This document shows, one piece after another, positions 1-48,921 of a stretch of DNA of 64,000 bases. Origin of the DNA: Natrinema caseinilyticum. GTDB lineage: Archaea; Halobacteriota; Halobacteria; Halobacteriales; Natrialbaceae. The position numbers and the translations under genes are program-made. The stretch is from positions 3,097,369 through 3,161,368 of the forward strand of contig NZ_CP100445.1 in NCBI RefSeq assembly GCF_024227435.1, given 5' to 3'. Numbering within the stretch: position 1 is the first letter of the stretch; each line of letters begins with the position of its first letter. The notes under the pieces were generated by a model. It was not told where the DNA came from. It saw only the letters and a program-made list of their open reading frames with translations, and searched no databases.

Positions 1-181
1 GCGTATCGAAGTGAGCAACGAGTTTCCGGTCTCTCTGGTCGCGCGTCGGTCTGACGACGACCGTCTCAGTCGCGGGATGGTGGTTGAGATTGATCCGTAA
101 CTGCTCGAAGATCCGACCCCGCCGTCCGGATACACCGATCGGGTCAGATCCGCCATCTGCCAGCAAATCGCCGAGAGACAT
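1..181 (-). CDS. Partial CDS of unknown function, cut by window start
   Basis: A minus-strand frame opens with ATG at 181-179 and runs uninterrupted to the window edge, giving about 60 residues that begin MSLGDLLADGGSDPIGVSG. Its start lies one base from the stop codon of the upstream winged-helix gene (182-760), so the two are almost certainly one transcript. The visible part is polar, with several Arg/His pairs and no membrane segment. I do not recognise the family. The tight coupling to a DNA-binding protein suggests a functional pair, but that is inference only. Confidence 0.6.
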   Translation of the reverse strand, partial: MSLGDLLADGGSDPIGVSGRRGRIFEQLRINLNHHPATETVVVRPTRDQRDRKLVAHFDT

Positions 182-760
182 CTATACAGCCGAATCTACC
201 GACGGTCGGTAGTGGTCGCTGAATTTCTCGTATCGCTCGAGCGCTTCCTCCGCTATCGAGACCATGTGCGAGTGCGAGTCCCACTCGGAGGCCTTTTTGA
301 AGTATTCCCGCGCCTCCCTCGAGGAGGTGTCGTCGGCCGTCGCGAGTTTCCGCAGTTCATCCGCGCTCTCGACACCGTACGTTTCCCCGAGTTCCTCGAT
401 GTCCTCCTTTGCAGTGACCGTCATCGTCTCGATTTCGCTGCGAGTGTGTTCCTCGATCAGCTGTGACACTTCTTTGAACCGCTGATACGCGGCATCGGGA
501 TAGTACGTCTTCGCACCTCGCTGTTCGACTGCACTCAGGATATGCAGATCGACCAATCGCTCGAGGTGACTCCGTGCCGTCGTCGGTGATACCGCCGCTC
601 GCTCCGCGATCCAGTCCGCCGTCCGCGGTTGCTCGGTCGTCAACGCGACCGAAATCACGCGGTCGACTCCCGGCATCTCGTCCGTCCATTCGTCGGTCCG
701 TTCCGCCTCGTCCACGATTTCGATCGCTTCGGGTGGTGCCAGAGAGTCGTCGTCAGCCAT
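182..760 (-). CDS. Winged-helix (ArsR/MarR-like) DNA-binding protein
   Basis: This 192-aa protein has an N-terminal acidic segment, a winged HTH at roughly residues 35-85 (DWIAERAAVSPTTARSHLERL followed by an Leu/Val-rich wing), then a long helical, charged C-terminal half likely to form a dimerising coiled coil. It resembles the haloarchaeal HTH proteins grouped as DUF7342; that assignment is from memory. I chose the ATG at 760 (MADDDS) over one at 802 because the longer form adds a basic, non-haloarchaeal leader and overlaps the promoter. It is followed one base later by a second gene. A palindrome lies in its promoter, consistent with autoregulation. Confidence 0.8.
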   Translation of the reverse strand: MADDDSLAPPEAIEIVDEAERTDEWTDEMPGVDRVISVALTTEQPRTADWIAERAAVSPTTARSHLERLVDLHILSAVEQRGAKTYYPDAAYQRFKEVSQLIEEHTRSEIETMTVTAKEDIEELGETYGVESADELRKLATADDTSSREAREYFKKASEWDSHSHMVSIAEEALERYEKFSDHYRPSVDSAV

Positions 761-792
761 ATCTCGATCATTTGGCCTCGAGAACAATAACC

Positions 793-828
793 TTGTGTGC
801 ACACCAATTATACAATCTCCATCTGGAG
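793..828 (-). promoter_or_regulatory. TATA-like box with flanking palindromes upstream of the winged-helix gene
   Basis: Read on the minus strand, TGTATAATT (815-807) is a good archaeal TATA box about 50 nt before the ATG at 760. Directly downstream lies the perfect palindrome GTGTGCACAC (795-804). Upstream lies the inverted repeat CTCCA-TC-TGGAG (817-828). A palindrome between TATA box and start codon is a typical repressor position; binding by the adjacent HTH protein is inference. Confidence 0.45.
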
Positions 829-1011
829 TTTTTGACTGTCAATCGGTCGCGGGTACCGAGTCCGCCAACCCCGCCTATCTGAACGTGAGAAAACACGGAA
901 GCCGCGAGCTACACCCCGTCCAGGTTCGCGCGAGCCCGGCTCGTGAATGGCTAGCTCACTGCACCGAGCCAGTCGTCACTCAAACCGGCGGTAACCATGC
1001 GGAAAACGGCG

Positions 1012-1034
1012 ATGCGCGGACCGGGATTTGAACC
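1012..1034 (-). repeat. Duplicate of the tRNA-Gly 3' end (att-like)
   Basis: These 23 bases are identical to 1134-1156, which contain the discriminator, acceptor strand and T-arm of tRNA-Gly. Identity stops sharply inside the T stem. A duplicated tRNA 3' end is the usual scar of a tyrosine-recombinase integration (attL/attR). The 99 bases between the copies hold no gene, so this would be an empty or eroded site, or the inner boundary of an element extending left of the window. Confidence 0.55.
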
Positions 1035-1134
1035 ACCTGAAGACGGTCGCGTTCGCTTCGCTCACGCGCTGCGACTCCCGTCGTTCAATCCCTCGTGCGA
1101 TTGCTGCTGCTCGCGGTGATGCTCGCCGCAGAAA

Positions 1135-1205
1135 TGCGCGGACCGGGATTTGAACCCGGGCCATGAGCTTGGAAGGCTCAGGTCCTACCACTAGACCATC
1201 CGCGC
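1135..1205 (-). tRNA. tRNA-Gly (anticodon TCC)
   Basis: The 71-nt cloverleaf has acceptor GCGCGGA paired with TCCGCGC, D-loop GTCTAGTGGTAGGAC, anticodon loop CTTCCAA with anticodon TCC, T arm CCCGGGTTCAAATCCCGG and discriminator A. CCA is not encoded, as usual in haloarchaea. A TATA-like CTTAAACG lies about 27 nt upstream (near 1232). Its 3' end is duplicated at 1012-1034. Confidence 0.95.
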
Positions 1206-1299
1206 GCACTCTCGGATTTTCGTTCCACGTTTAAGGCGCTTCCGTTTCGCGCCGCCCGCCTGCGGTCCCTGCTGGCGATTGGCGCACTCGAGCGCGAAG

Positions 1300-2058
1300 T
1301 CAGTCAGACCCGGGGCCCCGCGCCCCCGCCACCGTCGCGTAACAGTTCCCGCTCGAGAGTTCCCACTCGCGGAGTTCGAGGGCGCTGTCCGCGAGGTCGG
1401 CTTCGAACTCGTCGGGGGCGTAGATGTGGTAGAATCGGTCGACCGGCTCGCCGCCGGGGAGAGTCCACTCGACGGTCGTATCGAAGCCCTCGGTCTCGTC
1501 GAACCGGTCGTGGGCGGTCGACCACGCGCTGACCAGCGCGCGGCCCTCGGGAGACAGAACCCGCGCGAGTTCGTCCAGACTGTCCCGGCGGGCCCGGCGG
1601 GTCGGCAGGTGGTGCAGCGTGGCGACGTAGACCGCGAGATCGACCGCATCGGTCGCGAGCGGGAGCGCCGCCGCATCGGCCTGCACCAGTTCGACGTCGA
1701 ACCCGCGCTCCGTCGCCCGGGTTCGACCCGTCTCGAGCAACCCGCGGCTGACGTCCAGGCCGACCACGGACTCGAGGTGCGGGGCCAGCAGTTCGGCGTG
1801 GCGACAGTTGCCACAGCCGAGGTCGAGGCCGACGCCGTCGGCCGTGGCGGTTTCGAGGTCTCCCGCGTGGGTCTCCACGAAGGACTCGACCTCGGACCAG
1901 GCGTACTCTCGCGTGGACGCGAAGTGGGTCGCGATCCGGTCGTAGGTGTCGCGGATCTCGGCGCGGTCGGCGTACTCGTCCGCTCGGCTCGAGTCTCTAT
2001 CTCGAGTCGGCTTCTGTGCCCGATTCCGGTCGCCATCGGGACCCTGGTCGTCGGCCAT
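1300..2058 (-). CDS. Trm9/ABH8-like class I SAM methyltransferase
   Basis: The 252-aa protein carries the class I methyltransferase motifs: motif I LDLGCGNCRHAELLAPH (about residues 78-94), an acidic residue after VVGLDVS, motif IV DLAVYVATLHHLP and post-motif LSPEGRALVSAWS. The pre-motif DTYDRIATHFASTR and the GCGN plus ATLHH spacing match the Trm9/ALKBH8 tRNA wobble-uridine methyltransferase family. The substrate in archaea is less certain. The ATG at 2058 (MADDQGPD) is preferred over an ATG nine codons upstream because the acidic N terminus is typical. It is a single gene between tRNA-Gly and a zinc-ribbon gene, all on the same strand. Confidence 0.8.
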   Translation of the reverse strand: MADDQGPDGDRNRAQKPTRDRDSSRADEYADRAEIRDTYDRIATHFASTREYAWSEVESFVETHAGDLETATADGVGLDLGCGNCRHAELLAPHLESVVGLDVSRGLLETGRTRATERGFDVELVQADAAALPLATDAVDLAVYVATLHHLPTRRARRDSLDELARVLSPEGRALVSAWSTAHDRFDETEGFDTTVEWTLPGGEPVDRFYHIYAPDEFEADLADSALELREWELSSGNCYATVAGARGPGSD

Positions 2059-2168
2059 CGACGGATTTCGTCGGGGAACGCGCAAAAAGAATTCGCAACC
2101 CCGTCACCGCGGGACCGGGGTCGGGGGTGGCTGCTATCAGCGCCGAATCGGTCGGCCCGCGATTGGAG

Positions 2169-2399
2169 TCAGAGCCGCTTCACCTGTCCGGGCGTGAGAC
2201 TGCAGCCACACGGCCCCGCGGTGTGATCCGCCGGCCCGCGAGACGTGACCGACGAGACCGGCCCGCCGCAGTTCGGGCACCTGGAGAGCTCCGGTGGCGG
2301 GTTGAGGTCCACGTCTATGAGGATGCCATCCAGAATCTCGGACTCGGTCGGAGCCGGGCTCGAGTCGGGGTCGTCGTCGATCAGTTCGTCGTCGGTCAT
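2169..2399 (-). CDS. Small zinc-ribbon protein
   Basis: The product has 76 aa: an acidic N terminus (MTDDELIDDDPDS) and a compact metal site CPNCGG (about residues 41-46) paired with a CGC near residue 63. The C-terminal LTPGQVKRL is basic. Small CPxCG-type zinc proteins are abundant in haloarchaea and mostly uncharacterised; roles in protein or nucleic-acid contacts are presumed. It lies upstream of and on the same strand as the Trm9-like gene, with a 110-bp gap. Confidence 0.7.
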   Translation of the reverse strand: MTDDELIDDDPDSSPAPTESEILDGILIDVDLNPPPELSRCPNCGGPVSSVTSRGPADHTAGPCGCSLTPGQVKRL

Positions 2400-2497
2400 C
2401 GACGACCTCCGTCCGCTGTGTGGGTGTCGCGCCGCTGTACTCGCTGATCGGGGCGGCGATCCTGTCGTGTGTGGCGATACTTCCGTCGTGCGAGACG

Positions 2498-2680
2498 TTT
2501 ATGTCTCGGTAGAAGCAAGTGGAACATGGCTTGCAAAGCCGTGGATGGCTTGGAAGCCACGCTTCGGGTGTCTCAGCACCCGGGGCATTTCACGTACGCC
2601 CCCGTATTTGGAAGCGTAACTTCCATTCAGAATGTGTCCGTCGGATACCTTATAACTACTGGAATCAACCATGTATAGAA
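2498..2680 (+). other. Hairpin-rich transcribed-looking stretch (ncRNA or 50-aa leaderless ORF)
   Basis: A TATA-like GTTTATG sits inside the inverted repeat GAGAC/GTCTC (2492-2507). About 25 nt downstream begins a run of compact hairpins: GGCTTGCAAAGCC, GTGG..CCAC, CGGGTGTCTCAGCACCCG, GGGGC..GCCCC and TGGAAGCGTAACTTCCA. The same stretch contains a 50-codon ORF from ATG 2526 to TAG 2678 (starts MACKAVDGLEATLRVSQHPG), spaced correctly for a leaderless mRNA. Its composition is unlike typical acidic haloarchaeal proteins. Serial hairpins favour a structured RNA, but neither reading is proven. The rest of 2400-2820 shows nothing else. Confidence 0.35.
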
Positions 2681-2780
2681 GTCCGCTCAGCTTCAGAGCG
2701 GTCCGTCTCAGGGTACTCGAGATCGAGACCGAGACCGGCGAGAATGTGGTGCCGTGACGTGGTCTCGAGGAATTCGAGGG

Positions 2781-2790
2781 GTTTATCTAT
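2781..2790 (+). promoter_or_regulatory. TATA box of tRNA-Ala
   Basis: GTTTATCTAT lies about 30-39 nt upstream of the first tRNA-Ala base, the expected archaeal box A distance. Confidence 0.55.
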
Positions 2791-2819
2791 GCCCGAGGGG
2801 AATTGACGGTTGCGCTCGA

Positions 2820-2891
2820 GGGCTCGTAGATCAGAGGTAGATCACTCCCTTGGCATGGGAGAGGCCCCGGGTTCAAATCCCGGCGAGTCCA
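2820..2891 (+). tRNA. tRNA-Ala (anticodon GGC)
   Basis: The 72-nt cloverleaf has acceptor GGGCTCG paired with CGAGTCC (one G-U pair), anticodon loop CTTGGCA with anticodon GGC, T arm CCCGGGTTCAAATCCCGG and discriminator A. CCA is not encoded. Downstream lie a terminator-like hairpin and remnants of an integrative element, making this gene the probable insertion target, although no second copy of its 3' end was found in the window. Confidence 0.95.
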
Positions 2892-2979
2892 TGCGAAATT
2901 ATCCGTCGTGCACAGGGTTCCAGACCGCAAGGTACGGACTCTGTCGCGGCCGGATTCGCCACTTCTGGGTTAGAGAACC

Positions 2980-3011
2980 CTCCCTCACCGAAGGGAGTTC
3001 ATCAGTTTTTT
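2980..3011 (+). terminator. Hairpin plus T-run downstream of tRNA-Ala
   Basis: Stem CTCCCT/AGGGAG (2980-2985 and 2992-2997) with a six-base loop is followed after eight bases by six consecutive T (3006-3011). Oligo-T terminates archaeal transcription, so this is a plausible end for the tRNA-Ala transcript. Confidence 0.5.
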
Positions 3012-3049
3012 AGACGCGGGTCGACGCCCGCCTGCGATTCTTTCAGGGA

Positions 3050-3175
3050 ATGGAGGTGGTCGACGTGAGCACCGTCGATCGCCTGCATCCGCCGATATGC
3101 GAGTTCTGCGGGTGTGAAATCGACGAATTAGGGAAGCGCTGTCCTGCCCTCGAGGATAGGAGGTGTCAACCATGA
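3050..3175 (+). CDS. 41-aa zinc-finger microprotein upstream of primase remnant
   Basis: ATG at 3050 opens a 41-codon frame with a metal-site pattern CEFCGC (about residues 20-25), Cys near residue 34 and Cys near residue 39, ending at TGA 3173-3175. The stop overlaps the start of the primase-like gene (ATGA at 3172), indicating translational coupling. Small Cys-rich proteins preceding primases are common in haloarchaeal viruses and plasmids, so it is best read as part of the same element. No experimental function is known to me. Confidence 0.6.
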   Translation: MEVVDVSTVDRLHPPICEFCGCEIDELGKRCPALEDRRCQP

Positions 3176-4263
3176 CGGTCCCCGCTGCCCAACAGTGTAC
3201 GCACGGCGGGTGCGACCGTGAAGCCACAGACCCAACAGACGCGGTTCCGGTTTGTGACTTTCATCTCGAAGCGATTCGGAACGGGAGAGACGTCGAAGAT
3301 AACGAGAATAGCGATAGTGACGCGGATTACGCTGAGTTTGCCGGGGAATGGGGTGACGCAGACTTCGCGAATCCGGAACGCGACGTCTACCCCGACGAAC
3401 TGCTCGAGCGCGAGCAGTGGATGGGACGTGCCGGCAAGAGCGGAAAACAGCCGGTCGTACCGTGGGGTGACGAGAACGCCCCCGCCGAGTGTTCGAGGGC
3501 CGGTCACACGACGGCTGACAAGTGTGACTGTGACGCCCGGTGGAAGTGGGACTACAGCGACCATTATGTCACTGGCAAGGAACTCGAGATGTTCCTCGAA
3601 GATCCGAAATACCGGGAGACGGTCAACGGCCGCGTTTTCATCCAGCGAGAGGACGACCCCTACGCGTTCGTCGACGGCGACGATGTCGTCTGTCCCGAGA
3701 CCGGCACCGTTCACCCCGCGTTCATCGCGGTCCTCGAACACCTCGGCGTGACCTACACCGACGTCTCGACGTCCGGCAGCGGTGTACACGCGTACTATCG
3801 CGGTGACCTTCCAATCGAAAAAGGACAGGCCACTTTCGAGATTGACACTGAGCCATGGGGTACGAACGACGAGCCGCCGGCGATCGAAATCTACGCGAAC
3901 AAGCACGTGAACGTTGCGACCGGAAAGCACGTTCCCGGTACGCCGCTCGAGATCAACGAGTGGAACGAGGACGTCCTCGAGCACTCACCACTCTCCACAG
4001 AGCACGACGACGGTCACTTCCTGCTATCGCCACATGCGGAATCGACGACGATCGCGACCGGTGAGGTGGTTCGGGTCGTCGGTCCAGGCTTCGGTACACC
4101 ACTCGACGAATGCGTCGAGCCGATACTCGTGGTTCTGGAGCTTCTTCTCGCTCGTCTCGAGTTCGCGATGTGGGACGGAGCGGTCGGCCGCTTCTCGGAG
4201 CGAGATCGGCTCCTCCTTCACCGGTCGACGGCTGCTGCTGGATTCAGGAAGCCGGACCCGTAG
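3172..4263 (+). pseudogene. Truncated virus/plasmid-type DNA primase (prim-pol-like) N-terminal region
   Basis: From ATG 3172 (SD-like GGAGGTG at 3157-3163) about 285 codons resemble the N-terminal part of haloarchaeal virus and plasmid primases. They hold a Cys/His finger (CTHGGC...VCDFH, residues 9-27) and a long conserved block with STSGSGVHAYYRGDLP and PPAIEIYANKHVNVATGKH, as in primase-polymerase catalytic regions. Around 4024 similarity ends: the frame becomes the antisense of an integrase fragment and runs on to a chance stop at 4263. Full-length relatives are much longer, so the helicase half is lost. It is probably inactive and is part of a decayed element beside tRNA-Ala. The exact family is inferred. 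Confidence 0.65.
4024..4221 (-). pseudogene. Integrase (tyrosine recombinase) N-terminal fragment
   Basis: The 65-residue minus-strand frame starts with GTG 4221 and reads EPISLREAADRSV, then KLQNHEYRLDAFVEWC and LTGRDRRRFRMWR. This is the SAM-like core-binding domain pattern of haloarchaeal XerC/D-type integrases (helix, YR..hFV.WC, LTGRDL..FR.WR). The catalytic domain with the Arg-His-Arg-Tyr tetrad is absent: the frame breaks at 4024, where the oppositely oriented primase remnant begins. The GTG overlaps the subtilase stop (GTGA). It is a dead stump and supports an integrative-element origin of 2900-4220. Confidence 0.65.
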
Positions 4264-5594
4264 TACGCCTTGTCGTACTCGTCAACTGTCTCAGCAGTAC
4301 GCTCTAACGTCGTGCGCACTTGGTACGCGCTGAAATCAGGGTTCTGGCTCTTGACGAGCGCAGCTGCCCCCACCACCTGTGGACAGGCCATCGACGTTCC
4401 AGCGTGCCAATCGTAGCCATAGGAGGCCCCCGTATAGGTGCCATCGTCGGCGTACTCGGGTACAGCGATGGTGTTGAAAACGAGGTCGAACCGCCAGTCG
4501 ACACCGGTACCGATAGCCGCGAGGTCGGCGTCTCCGCCGGGCGCGGCGATGTTGATAGCGTTCGTCCCGTAATTCGTGTAGAACGCTGGACTATCGGTCT
4601 CCTCTTCGAGCCCCGTGTCCCCCCATCGGTAGCCAACTGGTCCGGTGGCGCTGACGGACATGACGTTCGCTGCCTCGTTGGGAAGACTGACTGCGGAGAT
4701 ACACTCCTCCGTGCCGTCGTCGTCGAAGTCGCCGCAAAGACGCCCGTCACGCTGGAGGTCAGCGCTGTCGTTACCTGCAGCTGCGATGAGCAACGTCCCC
4801 TGACTATTGGCATAGGTCGTGACTCGGCTGAGCGCCTCGCCGTAGAATTGACCATATCCCTCGCGCGAGACTGGGTACGCCCCGATGCTCATGTTGGCGG
4901 CGTCGGCATCGATGCGGACGCTGTAGACGATAGCCGCGAGAATATCTGCGAACGACGCCAGTGCACCCGGTGAGAACACTCGGCAGTCGACAACGTCTGT
5001 CGCAGGCGCAGTACCGACGGCGCCTTCGTCGTTCTGGTCGTTTGCGGCGATAATACCGGCGACGTGGGTGCCGTGGTACCCGCCGTATGGACCACCAGCA
5101 CCATAGTCGTCGTCAGTAAAGTTCCGAGACAGGTCCGTGTTCACTGCATGCTCGAGGTCAGGATGACCGGCGGCGACCCCCGTGTCGATAACGGTTACGC
5201 GAGTCCCGTCCCCACGAGTAACCTCGTGGGCTTCTGGGATATTCTGGGCCTGCTTATCCCACTGATATGTGTATCCTGGTTCGGACGGTGCCCCGGCCGT
5301 GGAAGGCGGCTGGTCACTGAGGGGACGGTTCAGTGAGTATGTACTATCCGGAGCGTACTGCGCGTTTAGCGACTCGAGTTCGGACTCGGTCGCCTCTACG
5401 ACCAGGAGGTCGATCTCGCTCAGGTCGTGTACGACAGTCAGGTCAGCTGCTGTGACCCTTTCTCGTCGAGTTGTTCTCGTATCAACGATGAACCGGTCAG
5501 TTGCTGTTGCTGCAATGACCGTACTTCCCACCGCAACGCCACCCAGTAGACTGCCACTCACCTTGAGGAACGTACGTCGTGATTTCTCTGACAT
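4218..5594 (-). CDS. Tat-exported subtilisin-like serine protease (halolysin type)
   Basis: The 458-aa protein has a twin-arginine signal (SRRTFLKVSGSLLGG, residues 5-19), an I9-like propeptide region to about residue 105, and an S8 peptidase domain. The triad is visible as Asp in VTVIDTGVAAGHPDLE, His in YHGTHVAGIIA and Ser in AGTSMACPQVVG; the oxyanion Asn lies in AAAGNDS. It is secreted folded, as expected for haloarchaeal halolysins, and degrades extracellular protein. The C terminus stops just after the catalytic domain, without the C-terminal extension seen in some halolysins. Its stop overlaps the integrase stump, and it sits at the edge of a decayed element, so horizontal arrival is possible. 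Confidence 0.9.
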   Translation of the reverse strand: MSEKSRRTFLKVSGSLLGGVAVGSTVIAATATDRFIVDTRTTRRERVTAADLTVVHDLSEIDLLVVEATESELESLNAQYAPDSTYSLNRPLSDQPPSTAGAPSEPGYTYQWDKQAQNIPEAHEVTRGDGTRVTVIDTGVAAGHPDLEHAVNTDLSRNFTDDDYGAGGPYGGYHGTHVAGIIAANDQNDEGAVGTAPATDVVDCRVFSPGALASFADILAAIVYSVRIDADAANMSIGAYPVSREGYGQFYGEALSRVTTYANSQGTLLIAAAGNDSADLQRDGRLCGDFDDDGTEECISAVSLPNEAANVMSVSATGPVGYRWGDTGLEEETDSPAFYTNYGTNAINIAAPGGDADLAAIGTGVDWRFDLVFNTIAVPEYADDGTYTGASYGYDWHAGTSMACPQVVGAAALVKSQNPDFSAYQVRTTLERTAETVDEYDKAYYGSGFLNPAAAVDR

Positions 5595-6020
5595 ACAGCG
5601 AAGTCTATCAGTAACTCTGCTATTGTTATTACCAGTATGTTACTTTCGTAGTGACTGAAAACACAGTTTATGAGGATGGTACAGAGTGGCAAGGGCACCT
5701 CGTCGAGAGGGGTGTACCCAATCCTGTCTACTCCGATCGTGCAGGGCTCATTTTGGCTTTCTTTCAACTAAGTGCCGGATTGGATCTACATAAATCACGC
5801 CAACGTCCCTCCAGTGACGGTAAGCCATTCGCTCGGCATTGCCGGGGCGATGTGACGAGGTTTCCGCGGAGCAGCCTCTCCAACACACAGTCTCGATAGC
5901 GGAGGATGCTGCTGGCAGACGGCGGGTCTACTCCGATCGATGTATCCGGTCGTCGGGCACGGTCTTCCGACGACGGCGTATCAGAGGTACTGACAAGGGC
6001 CGCGACGCCGTATCGGATCT
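5595..6020. other. Intergenic stretch, no convincing gene
   Basis: This 426-bp divergent intergenic region separates the subtilase and a methyltransferase. An 82-codon frame from GTG 5651 has no ribosome-binding site or family resemblance and was not accepted. A 14-bp direct repeat (GTCTACTCCGATCG) occurs at 5726 and 5926. Nothing else was seen. Confidence 0.5.
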
Positions 6021-6620
6021 ATGACCACGTGGGACGAACGGTTTCGGAACGGTGAGTATCCATCAGAACCGGACCCGTCGCCGGTGCTTCGAGCGTACGT
6101 CGGCGAGTCGACTACCGGGAGGGCGCTCGACGTCGCCTGTGGCACGGGACGCAACGCGATCTTTCTCGCCGAGCAGGGGTACGAAGTCGATGCCCTCGAC
6201 CGGTCCGTCGAGGGGCTCCGAATCACGCGGCGAACTGCAGCGGACCGAGACGTCGGGGAACGCATCAATCCGATCCGGACTGACGCGACGCAATTCGAGT
6301 ATCCGGAGGATCGCTACGACGTCGTGACCGTCAGTTTCTTCCGGACCCTCGATCGATTGGGCGACCTCGAGGACGCGCTGAAACCCGACGGGCTGTTGTT
6401 CTATCAGCACCACCTCCGTTCGGATCCGCCAGCAGCGGTCGGTCCGAGCACGGACCGGTATCGGTTTCGCTCGAACGAACTCCTCCACGCCTGTCTCGAT
6501 CTGACGGTGCTGTACTACGAGGAGTCGAGCGAGCGACGGGAGGGAGACCTGTCGGCGACCGTCGAAATCGTCGCTCGGAATAGCCACGGCGGAACGCAAT
6601 CGTATCCGGAGACGCGTTGA
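6021..6620 (+). CDS. TehB/UbiE-like class I SAM methyltransferase
   Basis: The 199-aa protein has SAM motif I ALDVACGTGRNAIFLAEQGYEV (residues 35-55), an Asp after EVDA in motif II, and motif IV EDRYDVVTVSFFRTLDRLGD. The substrate-proximal part contains LLFYQHHLR. Length and layout match small-molecule methyltransferases of the TehB/methyltransferase_25 kind; the substrate is unknown. The ATG at 6021 (MTTWDERF) is the natural start, as WDERF is a common opening in this family. It is monocistronic and followed by 246 bp without a gene. Confidence 0.8.
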   Translation: MTTWDERFRNGEYPSEPDPSPVLRAYVGESTTGRALDVACGTGRNAIFLAEQGYEVDALDRSVEGLRITRRTAADRDVGERINPIRTDATQFEYPEDRYDVVTVSFFRTLDRLGDLEDALKPDGLLFYQHHLRSDPPAAVGPSTDRYRFRSNELLHACLDLTVLYYEESSERREGDLSATVEIVARNSHGGTQSYPETR

Positions 6621-6866
6621 ACTTCCACCGACGATCGACAGCGCCGACAGTTCGCAGAACCGATTCGTCGAGACTCGAGCGACGCGTGCGTTCGGACCGT
6701 CGTTCGCAGAATCGAGCGAATCGGATTTCGACGAGTTTGGGGGAACCCAGTTTTCATATCCTGATTCTGACTGGCGAGTTTTATTGGATCGGTGGTGGTA
6801 CGACCGCCACCCCATTGGTGCTAGTAGCAAACACATAACACGACCAGATGGGGAGGTACGTAATCC

Positions 6867-8234
6867 ATGACAGACAGCACATTGGCCAGCGAGCAATGGT
6901 GGGAAGAATATCGAGACGTCGTCAATTCGGATCCGGAAATGGAGTTGCACGGTCGGGACGCGTTCGACGAGAACTTCGTCGTCGGTATCGGTGAGGAACA
7001 CTTCCTCGTCGATGTCCACGACGGTGATGTCCGAGACGTTCGAACGCCGGGGTTGGACGACGCGTGGTCGTTTGGCGTCGTCGGTCCGCGAGAAGCGTGG
7101 GAAGAATTCGTTAGCGAAGTGCCGGCGCCCCACCACAACGAGGTGTTCGCGTCCTTCTATCGAACCGCAGTGAAGGGGGAAGACGGGTACTTCGACCTCA
7201 TCGGCAACCACAAAAAGATATTCCAGAACTTCCGATCGTTCCAGCGGGCGCTCGACCTGATGCGGACGACCCACAACGGCGGCGAACCGCGTACCGAGGG
7301 CACCACTCGTCCGTCGGAACCGACGGACGAACCCGTGACGGGTCAGTACGTTACCGTCGATCTCGGCGGTGTCGATCATCGCATCTACTACGAGGCGGCC
7401 GGGCCGGAGGACGGCATTCCCTTGCTCTGTCAGCATACGGCCGGCTGTAACAATCAGCAGTGGCGTCACGTGCTGAACGATCCGGACATAACGGAGCACT
7501 TCCGCGTACTGGCATACGACCTCCCGCGTCACGGAAAGTCGGTCCCACCCTCGAGCGAGTCGTGGTGGGCCGATCAGTACGACCTCACCGCCGAACGGTT
7601 TACGGACACCATCGTCTCCATCGCAGACGCACTCGAACTCGACGATCCCGTGTTCGTCGGCTCGAGCATGGGGGGAACGATCACGCTCGAACTCGCGGAC
7701 TGGTACCCCGACCGGTTCCGGGCGCTGATCGGTCTCGAAGCGGGCCTGTTCACGCCGGGATTCTACATTCAGTGGCTCGACCATCCCCACGTCAATACGA
7801 ACGACGTGAACTCCCACGCGACGTGGGGGTTGATGGCGCCCCACGGCCCGGAGTGGGCACGCCGCGAAACGCTCTATCTGTACGAACAGGGAGCCAACGG
7901 CGTCCTCAAGGGGGACCTCCACTATTACTCCGCGGAACACGACTACAGCGAGTCCGCCGACGACATCGACGCGACACGGGTCCGGCTGTACCTGATGAAC
8001 GGTGAGTACGATTACTTGACCAACCCGGACGATGCCCGGGAGGCCGCCGCAGCCATCGGTGACGGAGCGACGGCCCACGAGATGAAGGCGACTGGCCACT
8101 TCCCGATGAGCGAGCGGCCGGAACTGTTCCGGGCCTACCTGAAACCCGTCCTCGACGATATTCGAGGCGTCCGAGACGACCCCGTTCCCGAGGTTCTCGC
8201 GCCCGAGGACGTCGGCGTCGAAGCGAACAAATGA
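6867..8234 (+). CDS. SCP2-like domain fused to alpha/beta hydrolase
   Basis: The product has 455 aa. Residues 1-130 look like an SCP2/sterol-carrier-type lipid-binding module (FVVGIGEEHFLVDVHDGDV, then WSFGVVGPREAWEEFV). After a Pro/Thr-rich linker (about 145-160) comes an alpha/beta hydrolase with nucleophile elbow VGSSMGGT, acid in MNGEYDYLTNPDD and His in TGHFPMSE. Gly-His in QHTAGCN could form the oxyanion hole. A strong SD-like GGGAGGT lies at 6851-6857. The next gene (acetoacetate-decarboxylase fold) starts 10 bp after the stop, so the two form an operon. Hydrolysis of a hydrophobic ester or C-C bond is inferred; the SCP2 call is tentative. Confidence 0.75.
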   Translation: MTDSTLASEQWWEEYRDVVNSDPEMELHGRDAFDENFVVGIGEEHFLVDVHDGDVRDVRTPGLDDAWSFGVVGPREAWEEFVSEVPAPHHNEVFASFYRTAVKGEDGYFDLIGNHKKIFQNFRSFQRALDLMRTTHNGGEPRTEGTTRPSEPTDEPVTGQYVTVDLGGVDHRIYYEAAGPEDGIPLLCQHTAGCNNQQWRHVLNDPDITEHFRVLAYDLPRHGKSVPPSSESWWADQYDLTAERFTDTIVSIADALELDDPVFVGSSMGGTITLELADWYPDRFRALIGLEAGLFTPGFYIQWLDHPHVNTNDVNSHATWGLMAPHGPEWARRETLYLYEQGANGVLKGDLHYYSAEHDYSESADDIDATRVRLYLMNGEYDYLTNPDDAREAAAAIGDGATAHEMKATGHFPMSERPELFRAYLKPVLDDIRGVRDDPVPEVLAPEDVGVEANK

Positions 8235-8244
8235 CTTCACAACA

Positions 8245-9030
8245 ATGAACGACCAACAGTTCGACCCCGAGACCTACACCGGAATGCCGGACGGAACGGC
8301 CGTCCCCGCGCCGCAACTGATCGAGAACGCACGGATGCTGATCGTCGGCTACGAGGCCGATCCCGAGGTACTCGAGTCGGCGCTGCCACCCGGACTCGAG
8401 GCGCATCCGAATAGCCTCGTACAGATGAATATGTACCAGGTGCCGTCGGCGGAACAGACGAGTCACCTCGATCCGTACACACTCACGTATCTGACCGTGG
8501 AAGTGGCAGACCACGACAGCTCCGCGAGTAGCGCTGCGGAGGGAGAGATGTCCGTCCCCGGACGATTCTGGGTCGGTTACTGGACCGATTCTCCGCAGAT
8601 GCAGGCGTACACTCGCGAGGGCGGTGGCATTCCGAGTCAGGCGGGGACGTGTGAGTGGGAGGAAGACGACGGGACGGTAGTCTCGACGCTCTCGGTCGAC
8701 GGCGAACCCGTTATCGAGGCCGAGGCGAGCGTCGGCGACGAGCAAATAGACACCCTCACGGGACACCTCCACTATTACGCACACCGGCAGATACCGGAGC
8801 CGGCGGGTCGTCGCGCACAGGTCAGTGAACTCGTCGAATTCCCCATCCCCTTCGTCAGCGAACTGTACGAGGCCGACGTCGATCGCGTCGACTTCGACTT
8901 CCCCGAGAAATCACGGTTTCAGCGGTTCGCCCCCATAGAACCTCTTTCGACGCCGTCGATTCTCCACGGAACGGTTACGTTTACCTATCCGCAGGGGCGT
9001 CGAATCCGGGATTATCTCGCCGAAGGGTGA
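8245..9030 (+). CDS. Acetoacetate-decarboxylase-fold protein lacking the Schiff-base lysine
   Basis: This 261-aa protein shows the ADC-superfamily layout: N-terminal APQLIENARMLIVGYEAD with LPPGLEAHP, a central strand block, and C-terminal beta-rich hydrophobic segments. In true decarboxylases the motif REIYGFPKK supplies the catalytic lysine; here the matching stretch reads REGGGIPSQAG (about residues 128-138), so the Lys pair is Ser-Gln. It is therefore unlikely to be a decarboxylase. Lysine-less ADC-fold proteins are known to act as hydratases, aldolase-dehydratases or cyclase-like enzymes. It is co-transcribed with the SCP2-hydrolase gene 10 bp upstream. Confidence 0.75.
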   Translation: MNDQQFDPETYTGMPDGTAVPAPQLIENARMLIVGYEADPEVLESALPPGLEAHPNSLVQMNMYQVPSAEQTSHLDPYTLTYLTVEVADHDSSASSAAEGEMSVPGRFWVGYWTDSPQMQAYTREGGGIPSQAGTCEWEEDDGTVVSTLSVDGEPVIEAEASVGDEQIDTLTGHLHYYAHRQIPEPAGRRAQVSELVEFPIPFVSELYEADVDRVDFDFPEKSRFQRFAPIEPLSTPSILHGTVTFTYPQGRRIRDYLAEG

Positions 9031-42092: not shown

Positions 42093-43736
42093 ATGGTCGG
42101 GAATAGTGTCGGGACGGACGAGCGCAGTCGATCGGGCCGGCGCTCGTTCCTGAAGCGAACGGGGACTGCCGGCATCGCCGCGCTCGCAGGTTGTATCAGA
42201 TTTAATACTGTTACAGCTGACGGACCGGCAGAGGAGTTGATCCGGGACGGGTTCGAGGCCGCGGGTATCGAACCGCCGTTCCAGACCGCGATCGCGATCA
42301 CACAGGACGAGGAACGAGAGCGGTTCGCCCAGCTTCTCAAGGACGAACTCGACGACACCGGATTTTTCGATATCTCGATCGAACAACGGGACTTCGGCTC
42401 GCAAGTCGATCTGATGCTGAGTGCCGCCAAGAAGGAGGCAAACGCCATGTTCGTCGCGAGCTGGACCGGAGGGTGGGACCCCAGCGACTACGTCGACATG
42501 CTGTTTCACTCGAACAACTGGACGCCAAACGGGTTCAACGTCGGCCACTACGAGAGCGAGGCGGTCGACGAGTACATCGACACGGGCCTCACGGAAACCG
42601 ATCCGGACGAGCGGGTGGACATCTATCGAACGCTCCAGGAAGAACTGGTCGCGGACTCGCCGGCGTCGTTCCTCCGCTTTCGCGAAACGACGCACGTCTG
42701 GGACGACGCCGTCACCGGCTGGCGGACGTATCCGCTTCGAACGGGAGCGTACTACGCCGTGTACGCCCCCTGGGCCGACGTGTACACCGACCTCGAGGAC
42801 GGCAGCGAGTTCATCGGCGACCTCGGCAGCGACGTCAACAACTACGATCCCGTCTCGATAAACGGGACCGTCTCCAGTCAGGCAACGGCGCTCATCTACG
42901 AGGAACTCGTCGGCGTCGATTTCGATGGCGAAGTTCGACCGATGCTCGCCACCGACTGGGAGCAACTCGACGCCACGACCTACCGGTTTACGCTCCGCGA
43001 AGACGTCGAGTTCCACAACGGCGAGGAGTTCACCGCCGACCACGTCGCCGGCTCGTTCGAACGCTACGAGGGAGAGGTTCGAGAGGGTGACGTCTACGAC
43101 TGGTACGAGGACTGCGAGCGCGTCGACGAGCACACGATCGACGTCGAGTGCCGACGAGAGTACGGTCCCTTCGAGAACGCGCTCTTCAACGTGCCGATCG
43201 TTCCGATGGCGGCGATCGACGGAACCCACGAACTCGCCTCCGAACCGATCGGGACCGGCCCCTACCGGTTCGTCGAACACGACAGCGGCAACCACTGGCG
43301 GATGCGGCGCTTCGACGATCACTGGTTCGAGGGCAGCAAAGCGGTCCCGGCGACGGCACCGATCGAAACCGTCACCCTCGAGATCATCACCGAAAAGTCG
43401 TCCAGGCAGGGGGCGCTCGAACGCGGCGACATCGACTTCAGTACCGGCATTCCGTCGGTGAGTCTCGCGGATTTCGAGGGGAACGACGCGTACGGCGTCG
43501 GTCGCCACGTAAGCGGCGGGTTCGACATGGTCCTCTATCCCGTCTACCGGGCGCCGTTCTCGGAGCGATCGGTCCGTCGCGGCGTCAACATGTTGATCCC
43601 ACGTGAGGAAACGCTCGAAACCGTCTACAACGGGGTCGGCCAACTGGGCTATACGCCGGTTTCGCCGCTCCTCGAGAACTACGCCGACGAATCGTTTCAG
43701 GAAGCCATCGCCGACGAGTACGTTCGCCCGGACTAA
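42093..43736 (+). CDS. Peptide-type ABC substrate-binding lipoprotein, circularly permuted
   Basis: The 547-aa protein starts with a Tat signal and lipobox (GRRSFLKRTGTAGIAALAGC, Cys34). Residues about 45-232 match what is normally the C-terminal third of SBP family 5 proteins (EELIRDGFEAAGIEPPFQTA, MFVASWTGGWDPSDYVDMLF, ADSPASFLRFRETTHVWDD). Residues about 243-547 match the normal N-terminal two thirds (NNYDPVSINGTVSSQATALI, TYRFTLREDVEFHNGEEFTA, IGTGPYRFVEHD), ending at YADESFQEAIADEYV, exactly where the other block would continue. All parts are present once, in swapped order. It is the first gene of a five-gene transporter operon and should bind oligopeptides or nickel-type ligands at the cell surface. 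Confidence 0.88.
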   Translation: MVGNSVGTDERSRSGRRSFLKRTGTAGIAALAGCIRFNTVTADGPAEELIRDGFEAAGIEPPFQTAIAITQDEERERFAQLLKDELDDTGFFDISIEQRDFGSQVDLMLSAAKKEANAMFVASWTGGWDPSDYVDMLFHSNNWTPNGFNVGHYESEAVDEYIDTGLTETDPDERVDIYRTLQEELVADSPASFLRFRETTHVWDDAVTGWRTYPLRTGAYYAVYAPWADVYTDLEDGSEFIGDLGSDVNNYDPVSINGTVSSQATALIYEELVGVDFDGEVRPMLATDWEQLDATTYRFTLREDVEFHNGEEFTADHVAGSFERYEGEVREGDVYDWYEDCERVDEHTIDVECRREYGPFENALFNVPIVPMAAIDGTHELASEPIGTGPYRFVEHDSGNHWRMRRFDDHWFEGSKAVPATAPIETVTLEIITEKSSRQGALERGDIDFSTGIPSVSLADFEGNDAYGVGRHVSGGFDMVLYPVYRAPFSERSVRRGVNMLIPREETLETVYNGVGQLGYTPVSPLLENYADESFQEAIADEYVRPD

Positions 43737-43757: not shown

Positions 43758-44705
43758 ATGTCGATCGGACGATACGTCTGCAAGCGGCTGTTGATCACGG
43801 GCCCAGTCCTGCTCGGCGTCACCGCGTTGACCTTCTCGTTCGTCCACCTGTTGCCGGGCGATGCGGTCGATGCGATAAGCGGCTTTCGGGACGTCAGCCC
43901 CGCGGTCGAGGCGTCGATCCGAGCCGAGTACAACCTCGATCAACCGGTGTGGAAACAGTACCTGCTGTGGTTGTGGGACGCGCTCACCCTCGATTTCGGC
44001 CAGTCGCCGATCACCGGTCGCGACGTGACGGCCTCGATCGCCCACCGACTCCCGGCGACGATCGCACTCGGTGGTGCCGCGTGGCTGCTCGCACTCGCGA
44101 TCGGGGTGCCGGCGGGGATCGTCGCTGCGGTCAGACGGGGTGAGCCGGCCGACGAGGTCAGTCGACTCGCCGCGCTCGCCGGGATCGCGACGCCGAACTT
44201 TTGGCTCGGTCTCATCCTCCTGCTCGTCTTCAGCGTTCGACTGGGGTGGTTTCGGGTCATCCCGCCGGACGCACCGCTCGCCAGCCTCGCGATGGTGAAG
44301 TTCATGGTGTTGCCGACGATCACGCTCGGCACGGCCTCGGCCGCACTCGTCACGCGGCTGCTGCGATCGTCCATGCTCGGGGAACTCGACGAAGCGTACG
44401 TCCGGACCGCACGCGCGAAGGGCCTTCGAGAACGGACGGTGATCCTGAAACACGTCCTTCGAAACTCGCTGCTCCCGGTGGTCACCGTCGCCGGACTCCA
44501 ACTCGCGTTCCTGGTCGACGGCGCCGTCGTGGTCGAACAGATCTTCTCCTGGCCGGGCATGGGACGACTCCTGGTTCGGTCGATCCTCGAACGTGACTAC
44601 CCGGTCATCCAGGCGACCGTTCTCGGTATCGGCGTCGCGATCGTCCTCGCGAATCTGCTGGTCGATATCGTCTACGCAGTGCTGGATCCACGCATTCGAT
44701 ACTGA
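43758..44705 (+). CDS. ABC transporter permease, DppB/OppB type
   Basis: The 315-aa protein has six transmembrane helices and the N-terminal signature YVCKRLLITGPVLLGVTALT with FSFVHLLPGDAV. The ATPase-coupling EAA loop reads YVRTARAKGLRERTVILKHV, with NSLLPVVTVAGLQLAFLVDG and VEQIFSWPGMGRLLVRSI following. It pairs with the next permease to form the channel for peptide-type substrates. The gap to the binding-protein gene is 21 bp and to the next permease 3 bp. Confidence 0.92.
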   Translation: MSIGRYVCKRLLITGPVLLGVTALTFSFVHLLPGDAVDAISGFRDVSPAVEASIRAEYNLDQPVWKQYLLWLWDALTLDFGQSPITGRDVTASIAHRLPATIALGGAAWLLALAIGVPAGIVAAVRRGEPADEVSRLAALAGIATPNFWLGLILLLVFSVRLGWFRVIPPDAPLASLAMVKFMVLPTITLGTASAALVTRLLRSSMLGELDEAYVRTARAKGLRERTVILKHVLRNSLLPVVTVAGLQLAFLVDGAVVVEQIFSWPGMGRLLVRSILERDYPVIQATVLGIGVAIVLANLLVDIVYAVLDPRIRY

Positions 44706-44708
44706 CCG

Positions 44709-45839
44709 ATGAGCGAACGAGACTCCACCGCCGAACGCGGCCGAATTCGCATCGTCGGCTTCGACGATGCCGTCTCGGACCGGAAGCGGCGTCGCCACGA
44801 GGGCGACGAGGAGCCCGTCGATACTGCGGCGACGACGCGAGCGAGCGACCGGCCGACGACGGCCGAGACGACGGAGGCGCGGACACCCGGAGCGGCCGGC
44901 CGATCGGGACGCCGACTCGAGGACGCCTGGCGCCGGTTCCGGCGAAACCGATCGGCCACGTTCGGGCTCGGGATTATCGTCGTCATGGCGGTGCTCGCGA
45001 TCTTCGCCCGACCGATCGAGGTGTCGACGGCGGAGGTGACGATAACGCTCCAGCCGTTTTCTCTCGCCCCGTACGATCCGTCCGAGACGCTGGTCGGGCC
45101 GCAAAACGCGCCGCCGTCCCCGGCGCATCCGTTCGGGACCGACTGGGCGGGCCGCGACCAGCTCTCGCGGGTTCTCGTCGGCGGGCGGTACACGCTGAGC
45201 ATCGGCTTCGTCGCCGTCGTGCTGGCACTCGGCGTCGGCGTGCCCCTCGGGGCGATCGCGGGCTATTTCGGCGGCTGGGTCGACGAGACCATCATGCGAA
45301 TCGTCGACGTGCTGTACGCGTTCCCGTTTCTGGTGCTGGCGATCGCGATCGTCCCGATCCTCGAGCCGCTACCGATCCTCGGCGGCGGATTCTGGACGGT
45401 CGTCCTCGCCCTCGTCGTCACCGGCTGGATCGGCTACGCCAGGCTGTTGCGCGGCGAGGTACTCTCGGTTCGCGAACGCGAGTACGTCACCGCTGCCAGG
45501 GCGCTCGGCGTCCCCGATCGGACCGTCATCGCCAGACACGTCGTCCCGAACGCGATCGCCCCCGTCGTCGTTCAGGCGACGCTCAACGTCGGAACGGTCG
45601 TGCTCACCGCGGCCGCGCTCGGCTTTCTCGGCCTCGGCCTCGAGCCCGGCAGCGCGGAGTGGGGGGCGATGCTCTCGGAGGGCAAGAGCTCGCTCATCAG
45701 GGGCGATTGGCACGTGACGATCTTCCCCGGACTCGCGATTTTCCTGTTCGTCCTGGCGATCAACCTCGTCGGCGACGGGATCAACGACGCGATCGATCCG
45801 CACCGGGACGTAACCGACGAACGGAGGCGACTCCGCTGA
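44709..45839 (+). CDS. ABC transporter permease, DppC/OppC type
   Basis: The 376-aa protein has a long acidic cytoplasmic N-terminal extension (about residues 1-80, rich in Thr/Glu/Arg), then the DppC-type core with RRFRRNRSATFGLGIIVVMA, HPFGTDWAGRDQLSRVLVGG and EAA loop YVTAARALGVPDRTVIARHV. The end contains LVGDGINDAIDP as usual. The extension is longer than in bacterial DppC. Stop and next start overlap (TGATG at 45837-45841). Confidence 0.92.
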   Translation: MSERDSTAERGRIRIVGFDDAVSDRKRRRHEGDEEPVDTAATTRASDRPTTAETTEARTPGAAGRSGRRLEDAWRRFRRNRSATFGLGIIVVMAVLAIFARPIEVSTAEVTITLQPFSLAPYDPSETLVGPQNAPPSPAHPFGTDWAGRDQLSRVLVGGRYTLSIGFVAVVLALGVGVPLGAIAGYFGGWVDETIMRIVDVLYAFPFLVLAIAIVPILEPLPILGGGFWTVVLALVVTGWIGYARLLRGEVLSVREREYVTAARALGVPDRTVIARHVVPNAIAPVVVQATLNVGTVVLTAAALGFLGLGLEPGSAEWGAMLSEGKSSLIRGDWHVTIFPGLAIFLFVLAINLVGDGINDAIDPHRDVTDERRRLR

Positions 45840-46984
45840 TGGCGCTGCTCGAGGTCGACGATCTCGTCGTCCAGTTCTACACCGACGACGGCGTCGTCCG
45901 CGCAGTCGACGGCATCAGTTACGAGATTCGCGAGGGCGAAACGGTCGGTCTGGTCGGCGAGAGCGGTGCCGGCAAGAGCGTCGCGAGCCTCGCGCTGCTT
46001 CGGTTGCTCGACGACGCCGGCGAGGTCGTCAGCGGCGACGTCCGCTTTCGGGGCCGAAACGTCCTCGAGATGACGGCCGACGAACTCAGGGCGCTTCGAG
46101 GAAACGAGATCGCGATGGTGTTCCAGGACGCCGGCGCGGCGCTCAACCCCGTCTACACCGTCGGTGAGCAGATCGCAGAAGCGATCCGCGCCCACGAGGA
46201 CGTCACCGATGACGAGGCCCGCGACCGAGCGATCGGTCTACTCGATCAGGTCGGGATCCCTGATCCCGGCGTCCGATACGCCGATTACCCCCACGAGTTC
46301 TCCGGTGGCATGCAACAGCGGGCCGTTATCGCGATGGCACTGTCGTGTGACCCCAGCCTGCTCGTCTGCGACGAACCGACGACCGGTCTCGACGTCACGA
46401 TTCAGGCGGGGCTCGTCGAATTGCTCGCGGATCTCACGCGGGAGTCCGAGACGGCGGTTCAGCTCGTTACGCACGACCTCGGCGTCGTCGCGGAACTCTG
46501 TGACCGAGTTCTGGTGCAGTACGCCGGCCAGATCGTCGAACGGGCACCGGTCGAAGCGCTGTTCTACGAACCCGGACACCCCTACACCGTCGGGTTGCTG
46601 GCCTCGATCCCCCGGTTGGGCGACGAGCGCGAGCGGCTCACGACCGTCCCCGGGACGCCCCCCGATCTCGTCGACCCGCCGACCGGCTGTCGGTTCCACC
46701 CGCGCTGTCCGTACGCCGAGAGCGTCTGCGCCCGCCGCGATCCGCCGCTCGTGGAGACCGCGAGCGGGTCCGACGACGACGGCGATCCCGCGGCCCACGT
46801 CGCCGCCTGCCTCGAGTACACCGGCGACCTGAGCGACGGGTTGGACTACGAGGTAGTCGTCCGCGACGAAGGGGGCGACGGCGACGAGCGAAACCGCGAC
46901 GAGGAAGGCGACCGAGGCGGTGACGAGACCGACCGAGGCGAGGACGACCGTCGGGAACGTGGCCGACGGGGTGAGTCGCGATGA
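45839..46984 (+). CDS. ABC transporter ATPase, DppD/OppD type
   Basis: The 381-aa protein has Walker [22 protein letters not shown]-loop [13 protein letters not shown], signature [18 protein letters not shown], Walker [15 protein letters not shown] and H-loop [11 protein letters not shown]. The C-terminal oligopeptide domain has [20 protein letters not shown] (Cys motif, possible Fe-S or metal site). A very acidic and basic low-complexity tail ([20 protein letters not shown]) is unusual. It is coupled to the permease by TGATG and to the next ATPase by a 4-bp overlap. Confidence 0.92.
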
Positions 46985-48294
46985 CGGCGGCCGAGGACGA
47001 GCCGCTCCTCCGAGCAGAGGGTGTGGCGAAGCACTACACCACCGCCGAGGGGTTCGTAGACCGACTCTTCGGCGGGAGCGAAACGGTCCGGGCGGTCGAC
47101 GGCGTCGACCTCGAGATCCGCGACGGCGAAACGCTCGGGCTGGTCGGCGAAAGCGGCTGCGGCAAGACGACGCTCGGCCGGACGCTCGTCCGGCTGACAG
47201 AGCCCACCGCCGGTTCGATCACCTATCGCGGCAGGGAGATCACCGACTGCTCCCGGTCCGAGCTCCGGGAGCTTCGAGCCGATATTCAGTACGTCTTTCA
47301 GGACCCCGTCGCCAGCCTGAATCCCCAATTGACAGTCGGCGAAAGCATCGGTGAAGCCCTGGCGGTTCACGACGTCGTTGCCGAACCGCGGCGCGACGAG
47401 CGCGTTCGGGAACTGCTCGAGACGGTCGGACTACGAGCCGGGCACGCGACCCGCTATCCGCGAGCGTTCTCGGGCGGCCAGCGACAGCGGATCGGCATCG
47501 CCCGGGCGCTCGCCGTCGAACCCGAACTCGTCGTCTGTGACGAACCCGTCTCCGCGCTCGACGTCTCCGTCCAGGCCGGGATCCTCAACCTGCTCGCCGA
47601 CCTCCAGGACCGGTTCGATCTGTCGTACCTCTTTATCACCCACGACCTCTCCGTCGTCGAACACGTCGCCGACCGGGTCGCCGTGATGTATCTCGGGACA
47701 CTCGTGGAAACGGGGTCGACCGCCGAGGTGTTCCACGAGCCCTCACACCCCTACACCGAAGCGCTCCTGTCGGCGATCCCCGAACCCGACCCCCGCTGGG
47801 ACGGGGACCGGATCGTCCTCGAGGGGCCCATCCCCGCCCCGACGGCTCCGCCGTCCGGCTGCCGGTTCCACACGCGCTGTCCGAAGGTCATCCCGCCCGC
47901 CGAGTACGACCTCGAAACGGCCACGTTTCGGGCGATCGTGGCGTTGCGAACCCGATTCGAGCACGCTGCGTCGAGGGACGCGGGACTCGAGGCGCAGCTC
48001 CCGGGATCCCGAGACGACGCGGACGTTTCGACGGCGCTTCGGGACGCGCACGGAATCCCTCGGCAGCTCGCCGATCCCGCCGCCGAAACCGCACTTGAGG
48101 ACGCGCTCGCGGCCGCCGAAGCCGGCGATCTCGAAGCCGCCCGGAACGGCCTCGCGGCTGCGTTCGAAACCCCGTGCGAAACGACCGACCCAGTACTCGA
48201 ACCCGGTCGAGCCACCCATCCGATCGCGTGCCACCGGTTCGACGACCGATTCGAGGGCGAGCCCGAGCCGACTCGCGGGTCGAGTGACGACTAA
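46981..48294 (+). CDS. ABC transporter ATPase, DppF/OppF type
   Basis: The 437-aa protein has Walker [22 protein letters not shown]-loop [14 protein letters not shown], signature [18 protein letters not shown], Walker [15 protein letters not shown] and H-loop [12 protein letters not shown]. The oligopeptide C-terminal motif is [20 protein letters not shown]. About 110 further residues form a helical extension seen in haloarchaeal family members, ending [14 protein letters not shown]. It completes the operon of binding protein, two permeases and two ATPases. Confidence 0.92.
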
Positions 48295-48405: not shown

Positions 48406-48921
48406 ATGAAACGAACCGACGAGCCGGCGGACGACGATCCGTTCGTGCCGGGCCGCCGCGTGGACGCCGGACGCGACGGCCGTGCGATCGACTGGGCCGC
48501 GTTCAGCCACGCACTCACGCCGACGAGGCTTCGCCACCGGGCGATAAGCGTCAGCGTTTCGACCGACGACCGACGGTACGATCTCGGCGACCCGGTCGAA
48601 CTCACCGTCACGTTTCGCAACCGACTCCCGTTTCCGATCCGGATCCGGACCGAGTCGCCGAACCGGTGGACGTGGGCCGTCGACGGCCTCAGCGAGGCGT
48701 CGCAGGTACCTCGAGCGGTGCCCGATCGTCCCGCGGTATTCTCGTTCGACCGACGCGAGCGCAAGCGCTTTCGACGGCGGTGGCCCCAACGAATTCAGGT
48801 CGACGACGACCGGTGGACGCCCGTCGATACCGGAACCTACACGCTCGAGGTGAGGGTTTCCCGATCGGATGCGGCCGAGCGAGGGCTCGTCGATCGGACG
48901 GAAATCGAAATTACGAAGTGA
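48406..48921 (+). CDS. BsuPI-like beta-sandwich protein
   Basis: The 171-aa protein has a charged N terminus (about 40 residues) followed by an Ig-like strand pattern: YDLGDPVELTVTFRNRLPFP (the BsuPI-like core), RTESPNRWTWAVDGLSEASQ, VFSFDRRERKRFRRRWPQ and GTYTLEVRVSRSD. BsuPI is an intracellular protease inhibitor in Bacillus, but in haloarchaea the fold is widespread with unknown roles. No signal peptide is seen. It lies 111 bp after the transporter operon and may be separate. Confidence 0.7.
   Translation: MKRTDEPADDDPFVPGRRVDAGRDGRAIDWAAFSHALTPTRLRHRAISVSVSTDDRRYDLGDPVELTVTFRNRLPFPIRIRTESPNRWTWAVDGLSEASQVPRAVPDRPAVFSFDRRERKRFRRRWPQRIQVDDDRWTPVDTGTYTLEVRVSRSDAAERGLVDRTEIEITK

Follow-up and report, generated by a model that had tools for sequence, protein, structure and literature searches.

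The gene at 42093-43736 of the window (the whole stretch of Natrinema caseinilyticum DNA that was analysed, 64,000 nucleotides) encodes, with a probability of about 88%, a lipoprotein that works as the substrate-binding component of an ABC importer of DppBCDF type (oligopeptide/nickel class) and is a natural circular permutation of substrate-binding protein (SBP) family 5. Its role would most likely be that of an ordinary Venus-flytrap receptor with the lipid anchor now at the other lobe, a receptor assignment that rests on descent and operon context. The permutation is not unique to this genome.

Order of the parts and predicted fold

The PF00496 profile matches the window protein with 192.2 bits against a curated cut-off of 32.4, the best stretch aligning residues 280-537 with profile positions 1-261, and a search of the whole genome with the same profile places the profile end, 273-367, upstream within the same gene. 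The phmmer matches to the PDB cross in the same way, residues 246-530 corresponding to 5u4o 52-336 and residues 57-189 to 5u4o 357-484, and 1uqw and 8efz show the same crossed order. The gene is made up as follows:

42093-43736, + strand: circularly permuted SBP family 5 gene, 547 amino acids plus stop (PF00496 and PDB matches, full-length collinear orthologues)
42093-42194, + strand: predicted twin-arginine signal peptide with lipobox, residues 1-34 (R16-R17, LAGC ending at C34)
42195-42221, + strand: short spacer from the lipid-anchor Cys to the new N-terminus, including an A+T-rich stretch
42222-42776, + strand: C-block, the canonical C-terminal third now in front, residues ~44-228, starting with the A..LL..GF motif helix
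42777-42803, + strand: fusion joint of the old C-terminus (YAPWAD..) and the old N-terminus (..SEFIGDL), residues ~229-237
42804-43733, + strand: N-block, residues ~238-547, the N-terminal two thirds of the canonical chain up to the break EYVRPD

The initial annotation had described a C-terminal third followed by the N-terminal two thirds, each present once, and both points are borne out by the crossed matches and by block-specific profiles, which find one C-block and one N-block; the alignments were examined for blocks in canonical order and gave none. Since residues 44-228 stand before residues 238-547, out of canonical order, the protein is assigned by descent to SBP family 5 (PF00496, cluster C) as a permuted variant. 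In the three permuted SBPs of this genome the PF00496 match ends at position 261-285 of 368; annotation by profile cuts such proteins short without warning. R16, R17 and C34 are invariant or nearly so in the orthologue alignments, and the protein is predicted from the RR motif and the lipobox Cys to be a Tat-type lipoprotein; the Tat model TIGR01409 scores 15.5 bits, just below its cut-off of 16.7.

The input for AlphaFold2 (AF2) consisted of the window protein and 60 homologous rows, three of them permuted proteins and the others block fragments taken from canonical homologues, and the model from this alignment has a mean pLDDT of 85.6 and a pTM of 0.84. Low confidence is confined to residues 1-39 (the leader) and 211-229 (up to the joint), where pLDDT is below 50 and the exact chain path is therefore not predicted. 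Residues 236-547 of the model match 5u4o 42-347 (Z 25.5, rmsd 2.3, 295 aligned) and 8ch1_A 31-351 (Z 25.8, rmsd 3.6, 301 aligned). Because sequential structure aligners are blind to a permutation in one alignment, the C-block (residues 40-235) was modelled and searched alone, and it matches 5u4o 344-519 (Z 12.9, rmsd 4.1, 175 aligned) and 1uqw 305-487 (Z 12.5, rmsd 3.9, 176 aligned). As expected of a circular permutation with the fold kept, the two modelled blocks are complementary and together would cover the canonical protein end to end, in agreement with the retained fold proposed earlier. The top sequence and structural matches listed are all SBP family 5 proteins, and no cluster B (TpMglB-2-like) fold is among the structural matches listed, which speaks against a place in the Type Ic / Cluster Bc group.

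The permuted chain would fold into the usual two-lobed Venus-flytrap, and a putative ligand would be bound between the lobes, enclosed by their closure and delivered to DppB/DppC as by the canonical orthologues. The lipid-modified Cys would lead into the region of the break, which by the OppA fold would be the third domain, while in the canonical-order orthologues (group C1) it would lead into the original N-terminus. The permutation would alter chain connectivity and the anchor point, and the shift of the anchor is probably its main mechanical consequence.

Orthologues, selection and the operon

A close survey of 61 relatives, 28 of them congeners, found a full-length collinear orthologue in 23 of the 28 (64-91% identity), and a wider survey of 392 genomes of the order added full-length permuted orthologues from other genera of the same family (42-51% identity) and from two genomes of another family (G275 and G211). 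The same order thus recurs in the related haloarchaea, where the initial annotation had suggested looking for it. The assembly error that it had named as the contrary outcome, in which a mis-joined repeat or two incomplete SBP genes would pass for a single permuted gene, was tested against these independent genomes and not found, and is extremely improbable, given the same intact order and operon position in 23 congeneric assemblies and in other genera. Such artefacts do exist: the orthologue of one congener (G025) is split into two halves in different frames, but this is explained by a Nextera-like adapter sequence, CTGTCTCTTATACACAT, and an N inside the gene. They lie at about 7585-7605 of locus L088 (G025:C5) and have artificially split the orthologous gene of a public genome.

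The comparison of the window gene with its orthologues in six congeners by the Nei-Gojobori method gave dN/dS of about 0.15-0.27 for the whole gene, with similar values for the C-block and the N-block and 0.03-0.16 for the codons of the joint region, indicating that C-block, joint and N-block are all under purifying selection. A degenerate, non-functional or repurposed SBP that is retained by its operon might be suspected, in that the same genome carries canonical-order paralogues; this is very unlikely in view of the dN/dS of 0.15-0.27 across both blocks and the low values at the joint, of the invariant residues present across the diverse members of the window-type permuted group (P1), and of the intact partner genes. 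The proposal that the permuted protein is in use is supported by orthologue conservation, purifying selection, an intact operon and a confident AF2 model.

The partner genes follow directly:

43758-44705, + strand: DppB-type permease (BPD_transp_1; Pfam, operon also found with canonical-order SBP orthologues)
44709-45839, + strand: DppC-type permease (BPD_transp_1, OppC_N; Pfam and operon comparison)
45839-46984, + strand: DppD-type ATPase (ABC_tran, oligo_HPY; Pfam and operon comparison)
46981-48294, + strand: DppF-type ATPase (ABC_tran, oligo_HPY; Pfam and operon comparison)
48406-48921, + strand: conserved small protein of the same operon (no Pfam match)

The Pfam matches to DppB, DppC, DppD and DppF types agree with the earlier description of the downstream permeases and ATPases as intact. 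Almost every P1 and C1 locus read has a homologue of the small protein after dppF, and the protein is likely to be part of the transporter operon.

Stretches of 16-17 kb were compared around 19 relatives with canonical order and around 19 permuted orthologues that are intact, and the order SBP-dppB-dppC-dppD-dppF was found in both sets. The 19 sampled order-level relatives (L054-L072) have a canonical-order SBP in this same operon, their permeases and ATPases are about 52-70% identical to those of the window, and the SBP is the sole operon gene that differs in chain order between the sets. The C1 orthologues (L054-L072, L114, L115 Halorubrum ezzemoulense) share the SBP-dppBCDF operon with its small downstream protein, and are 32-50% identical to the window protein in the N-block and 27-43% in the C-block, but are not permuted. 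The comparison indicates that the permutation happened within an orthologous SBP-dppBCDF operon. To our knowledge, a natural circular permutation has rarely been documented alongside a non-permuted orthologue in synteny. The two sets offer matched natural pairs of the same importer in either chain order, so that one can ask whether binding, closing and permease docking depend on chain order or anchor site.

The neighbouring coaBC, DUF7344 and phosphoribosyltransferase genes were considered as a source for the substrate and rejected; they adjoin the operon chiefly in family f1 and at almost none of the canonical loci read, so that this adjacency gives no substrate. At one locus of the same family (L073, G204, 32-9000), the phosphoribosyltransferase and DUF7344 genes lie beside a divergent canonical-order SBP operon in opposite orientation, at the place where relatives have the permuted operon, a possible locus replacement.

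Break point and origin of the permutation

When the permuted proteins are rotated and aligned with canonical ones, all the permuted orthologues have one break in common, between EEYLGYD and PEKA..LL..GF, a single point just before the A..LL..GF helix. The canonical ...EEYLGYN, which runs on into QEKANTLLEEGF, has become the C-terminal ...DEYVRPD with its stop and the N-terminal ...GPAEELIRDGFEAAG of the permuted protein, and the chain (...IADEYVRPD) does end, as had been noted from the sequence, where the first block would follow. The old ends, YAPWADAYTTTGGG before the stop and SGGSELVATLAADV in canonical proteins, are joined as YAPWADVYTDLEDGSEFIGDLGSDV in the window protein; a few residues link the old termini, and the break is almost lossless.

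The initial annotation had placed the joint in the A+T-rich stretch after the lipobox Cys, and this location is not upheld. The true fusion joint, from the old C-terminus into the old N-terminus, is at residues ~229-237 (42777-42803), and the lipobox region is only a new N-terminal spacer. The stretch itself (42197-42216, 30% GC) is specific to the nearest species and gives no evidence of the event; as a rearrangement scar it was rejected, since orthologues with the identical permutation have 43-73% GC in the 30 bases from the lipobox Cys codon.

Permutation by duplication proceeds through tandem duplication, fusion and trimming (PMC3320104). Here two tandem copies of the gene would have fused in frame and then shed their outer parts, leaving the leader and lipobox of the first copy before the moved C-block. 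This route, which the initial annotation had put forward, fits the retained leader and the seamless, almost lossless joint; its duplicated intermediate was not found in the block-specific profile scan, as every ORF scored has one C-block match and a second N-block match is confined to the long proteins of C3/P3, a group with an insertion. Because no such intermediate was found, tandem duplication is a route that we infer.

A C-terminal fragment of one paralogue might instead have been joined to an N-terminal fragment of another, since permuted proteins are also known to arise by fission and fusion (PMC3320104), a route that would account for the missing duplicated intermediate. This is unlikely, as the closest non-permuted relatives of both blocks are the same C1 operon orthologues: the closest C1 loci are 42-50% identical in the N-block and 36-43% in the C-block, compared with 24-28% for SBP_5 paralogues of the same genome. 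The break also loses almost nothing, the old tail meeting the old head, and tandem duplication remains the preferred route.

The trees are no more than weakly compatible with one origin of all P1, for which the AU p was 0.07 with the SBP and 0.045 with the permeases and ATPases. The loci of the two genomes from another family (L074/L075; G275, G211) have a permuted SBP, but their permeases group with canonical-order loci, and they may be due to horizontal gain, to gene conversion or to the same cut made a second time. Since unrooted change counts are blind to gain versus loss and P1 does not form a clear single clade, it could be argued that the permuted order is ancestral in the operon and that the canonical order was derived by reversions in C1. 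This direction is very unlikely, because the great majority of the more distant SBP_5 relatives sampled are canonical-order and the cut lies elsewhere in the other permuted groups, so that descent from one permuted ancestor would have required several re-cuts.

Other permuted groups and known systems

A scan of all ORFs with block-specific profiles revealed permuted groups beyond P1, two more in haloarchaea and at least one in Bacillota. P2 consists of diverse and widespread haloarchaeal permuted proteins (L095-L113) together with two genes in the window's own genome. The loci identified with these profiles include:

L094 (G000:C1) 2131-3924 and 4937-6724, - strand: P2, adjacent SBP_5 genes of the window's own genome
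L036 1432-3429, - strand: P3, long haloarchaeal protein
L118 5956-7899, + strand: P3, Natrialbaceae archaeon
L144 3479-5617, + strand: P3, Halorubrum sp. CBA1125
L119 5683-7422, + strand: P4, Symbiobacterium sp.
L226 1492-3078, - strand: P5

L119 has 13 relatives in P4 (L211-L223), 51-58% identical over the full length. In a profile search of the contigs with the P1 alignment, the matches listed are canonical relatives, P3 (L118, L144) and P4 (L119), with generic SBP_5 patterns and no P1 member among them; these loci supplied rows for the AF2 alignment.

Canonical members of SBP family 5 / cluster C (OppA, DppA, NikA, GsiB/YliB 1uqw, 5u4o) resemble the window protein in that both blocks are homologous over the full length, and in predicted fold, DppBCDF importer class and lipoprotein leader; they differ in that the window protein has its blocks reversed and its anchor at the break, in the region of the third domain and not at the original N-terminus. 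A search of the open-access literature yielded no report of a permuted SBP_5 protein, which is not proof of absence. The nearest published case is in kind and not by membership: Tp0684/TpMglB-2 of Treponema pallidum is a circularly permuted binding lipoprotein of an ABC importer with a cluster B fold, for which Type Ic / Cluster Bc was proposed (PMC4990184). It is likewise a natural circular permutation with the bilobed fold kept (predicted for the window protein), but it has a cluster B sugar-binding fold, an unrelated break and a poorly conserved moved part, whereas in the window protein the homology of both blocks is clear and there is a non-permuted orthologue in synteny. Its authors raised membrane anchoring as a possible driver of the permutation (PMC4990184). 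A lipobox-like motif precedes the permuted examples read here and their canonical relatives too, so that a causal role of anchoring is speculation.

The groups P2, P3, P4 and P5 have the same kind of permutation as P1, in the same family and behind a lipobox-like motif, but their cut directly follows the A..LL.EAGY helix, about 20 residues beyond that of P1, which is cut before it, and they take separate positions in the trees. P1 stands together with C1, its canonical orthologues, and with C3/P3. P3 falls inside the canonical long relatives of C3 (L037-L039, L117) and may represent one or two events, P2 is a clade by itself, and P4 branches from within canonical proteins of Bacillota. A common permuted ancestor for P1 with P2 or P3, or for P2 with P4/P5, was rejected by AU tests on divergent rows: p was 1e-6 for P1 and P3 as one clade and, with a quick tree, 5e-4 for P1 and P2 and 1e-6 for P2, P4 and P5.

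In our reading SBP_5 proteins would have been permuted at least four separate times. It is rather probable that permutation is recurrent in the family, with at least four independent events in haloarchaea and Bacillota, cuts within one segment of about 20 residues, the anchor moved to the third-domain region and one event traceable within an orthologous operon. The break segment is proposed as a hot spot: the cuts of separate permuted SBP_5 groups in haloarchaea and Bacillota lie no more than about 20 residues from it. That the cuts return to this one segment suggests that cluster C SBPs tolerate a cut there, which would be of use in designing biosensors and permuted scaffolds.
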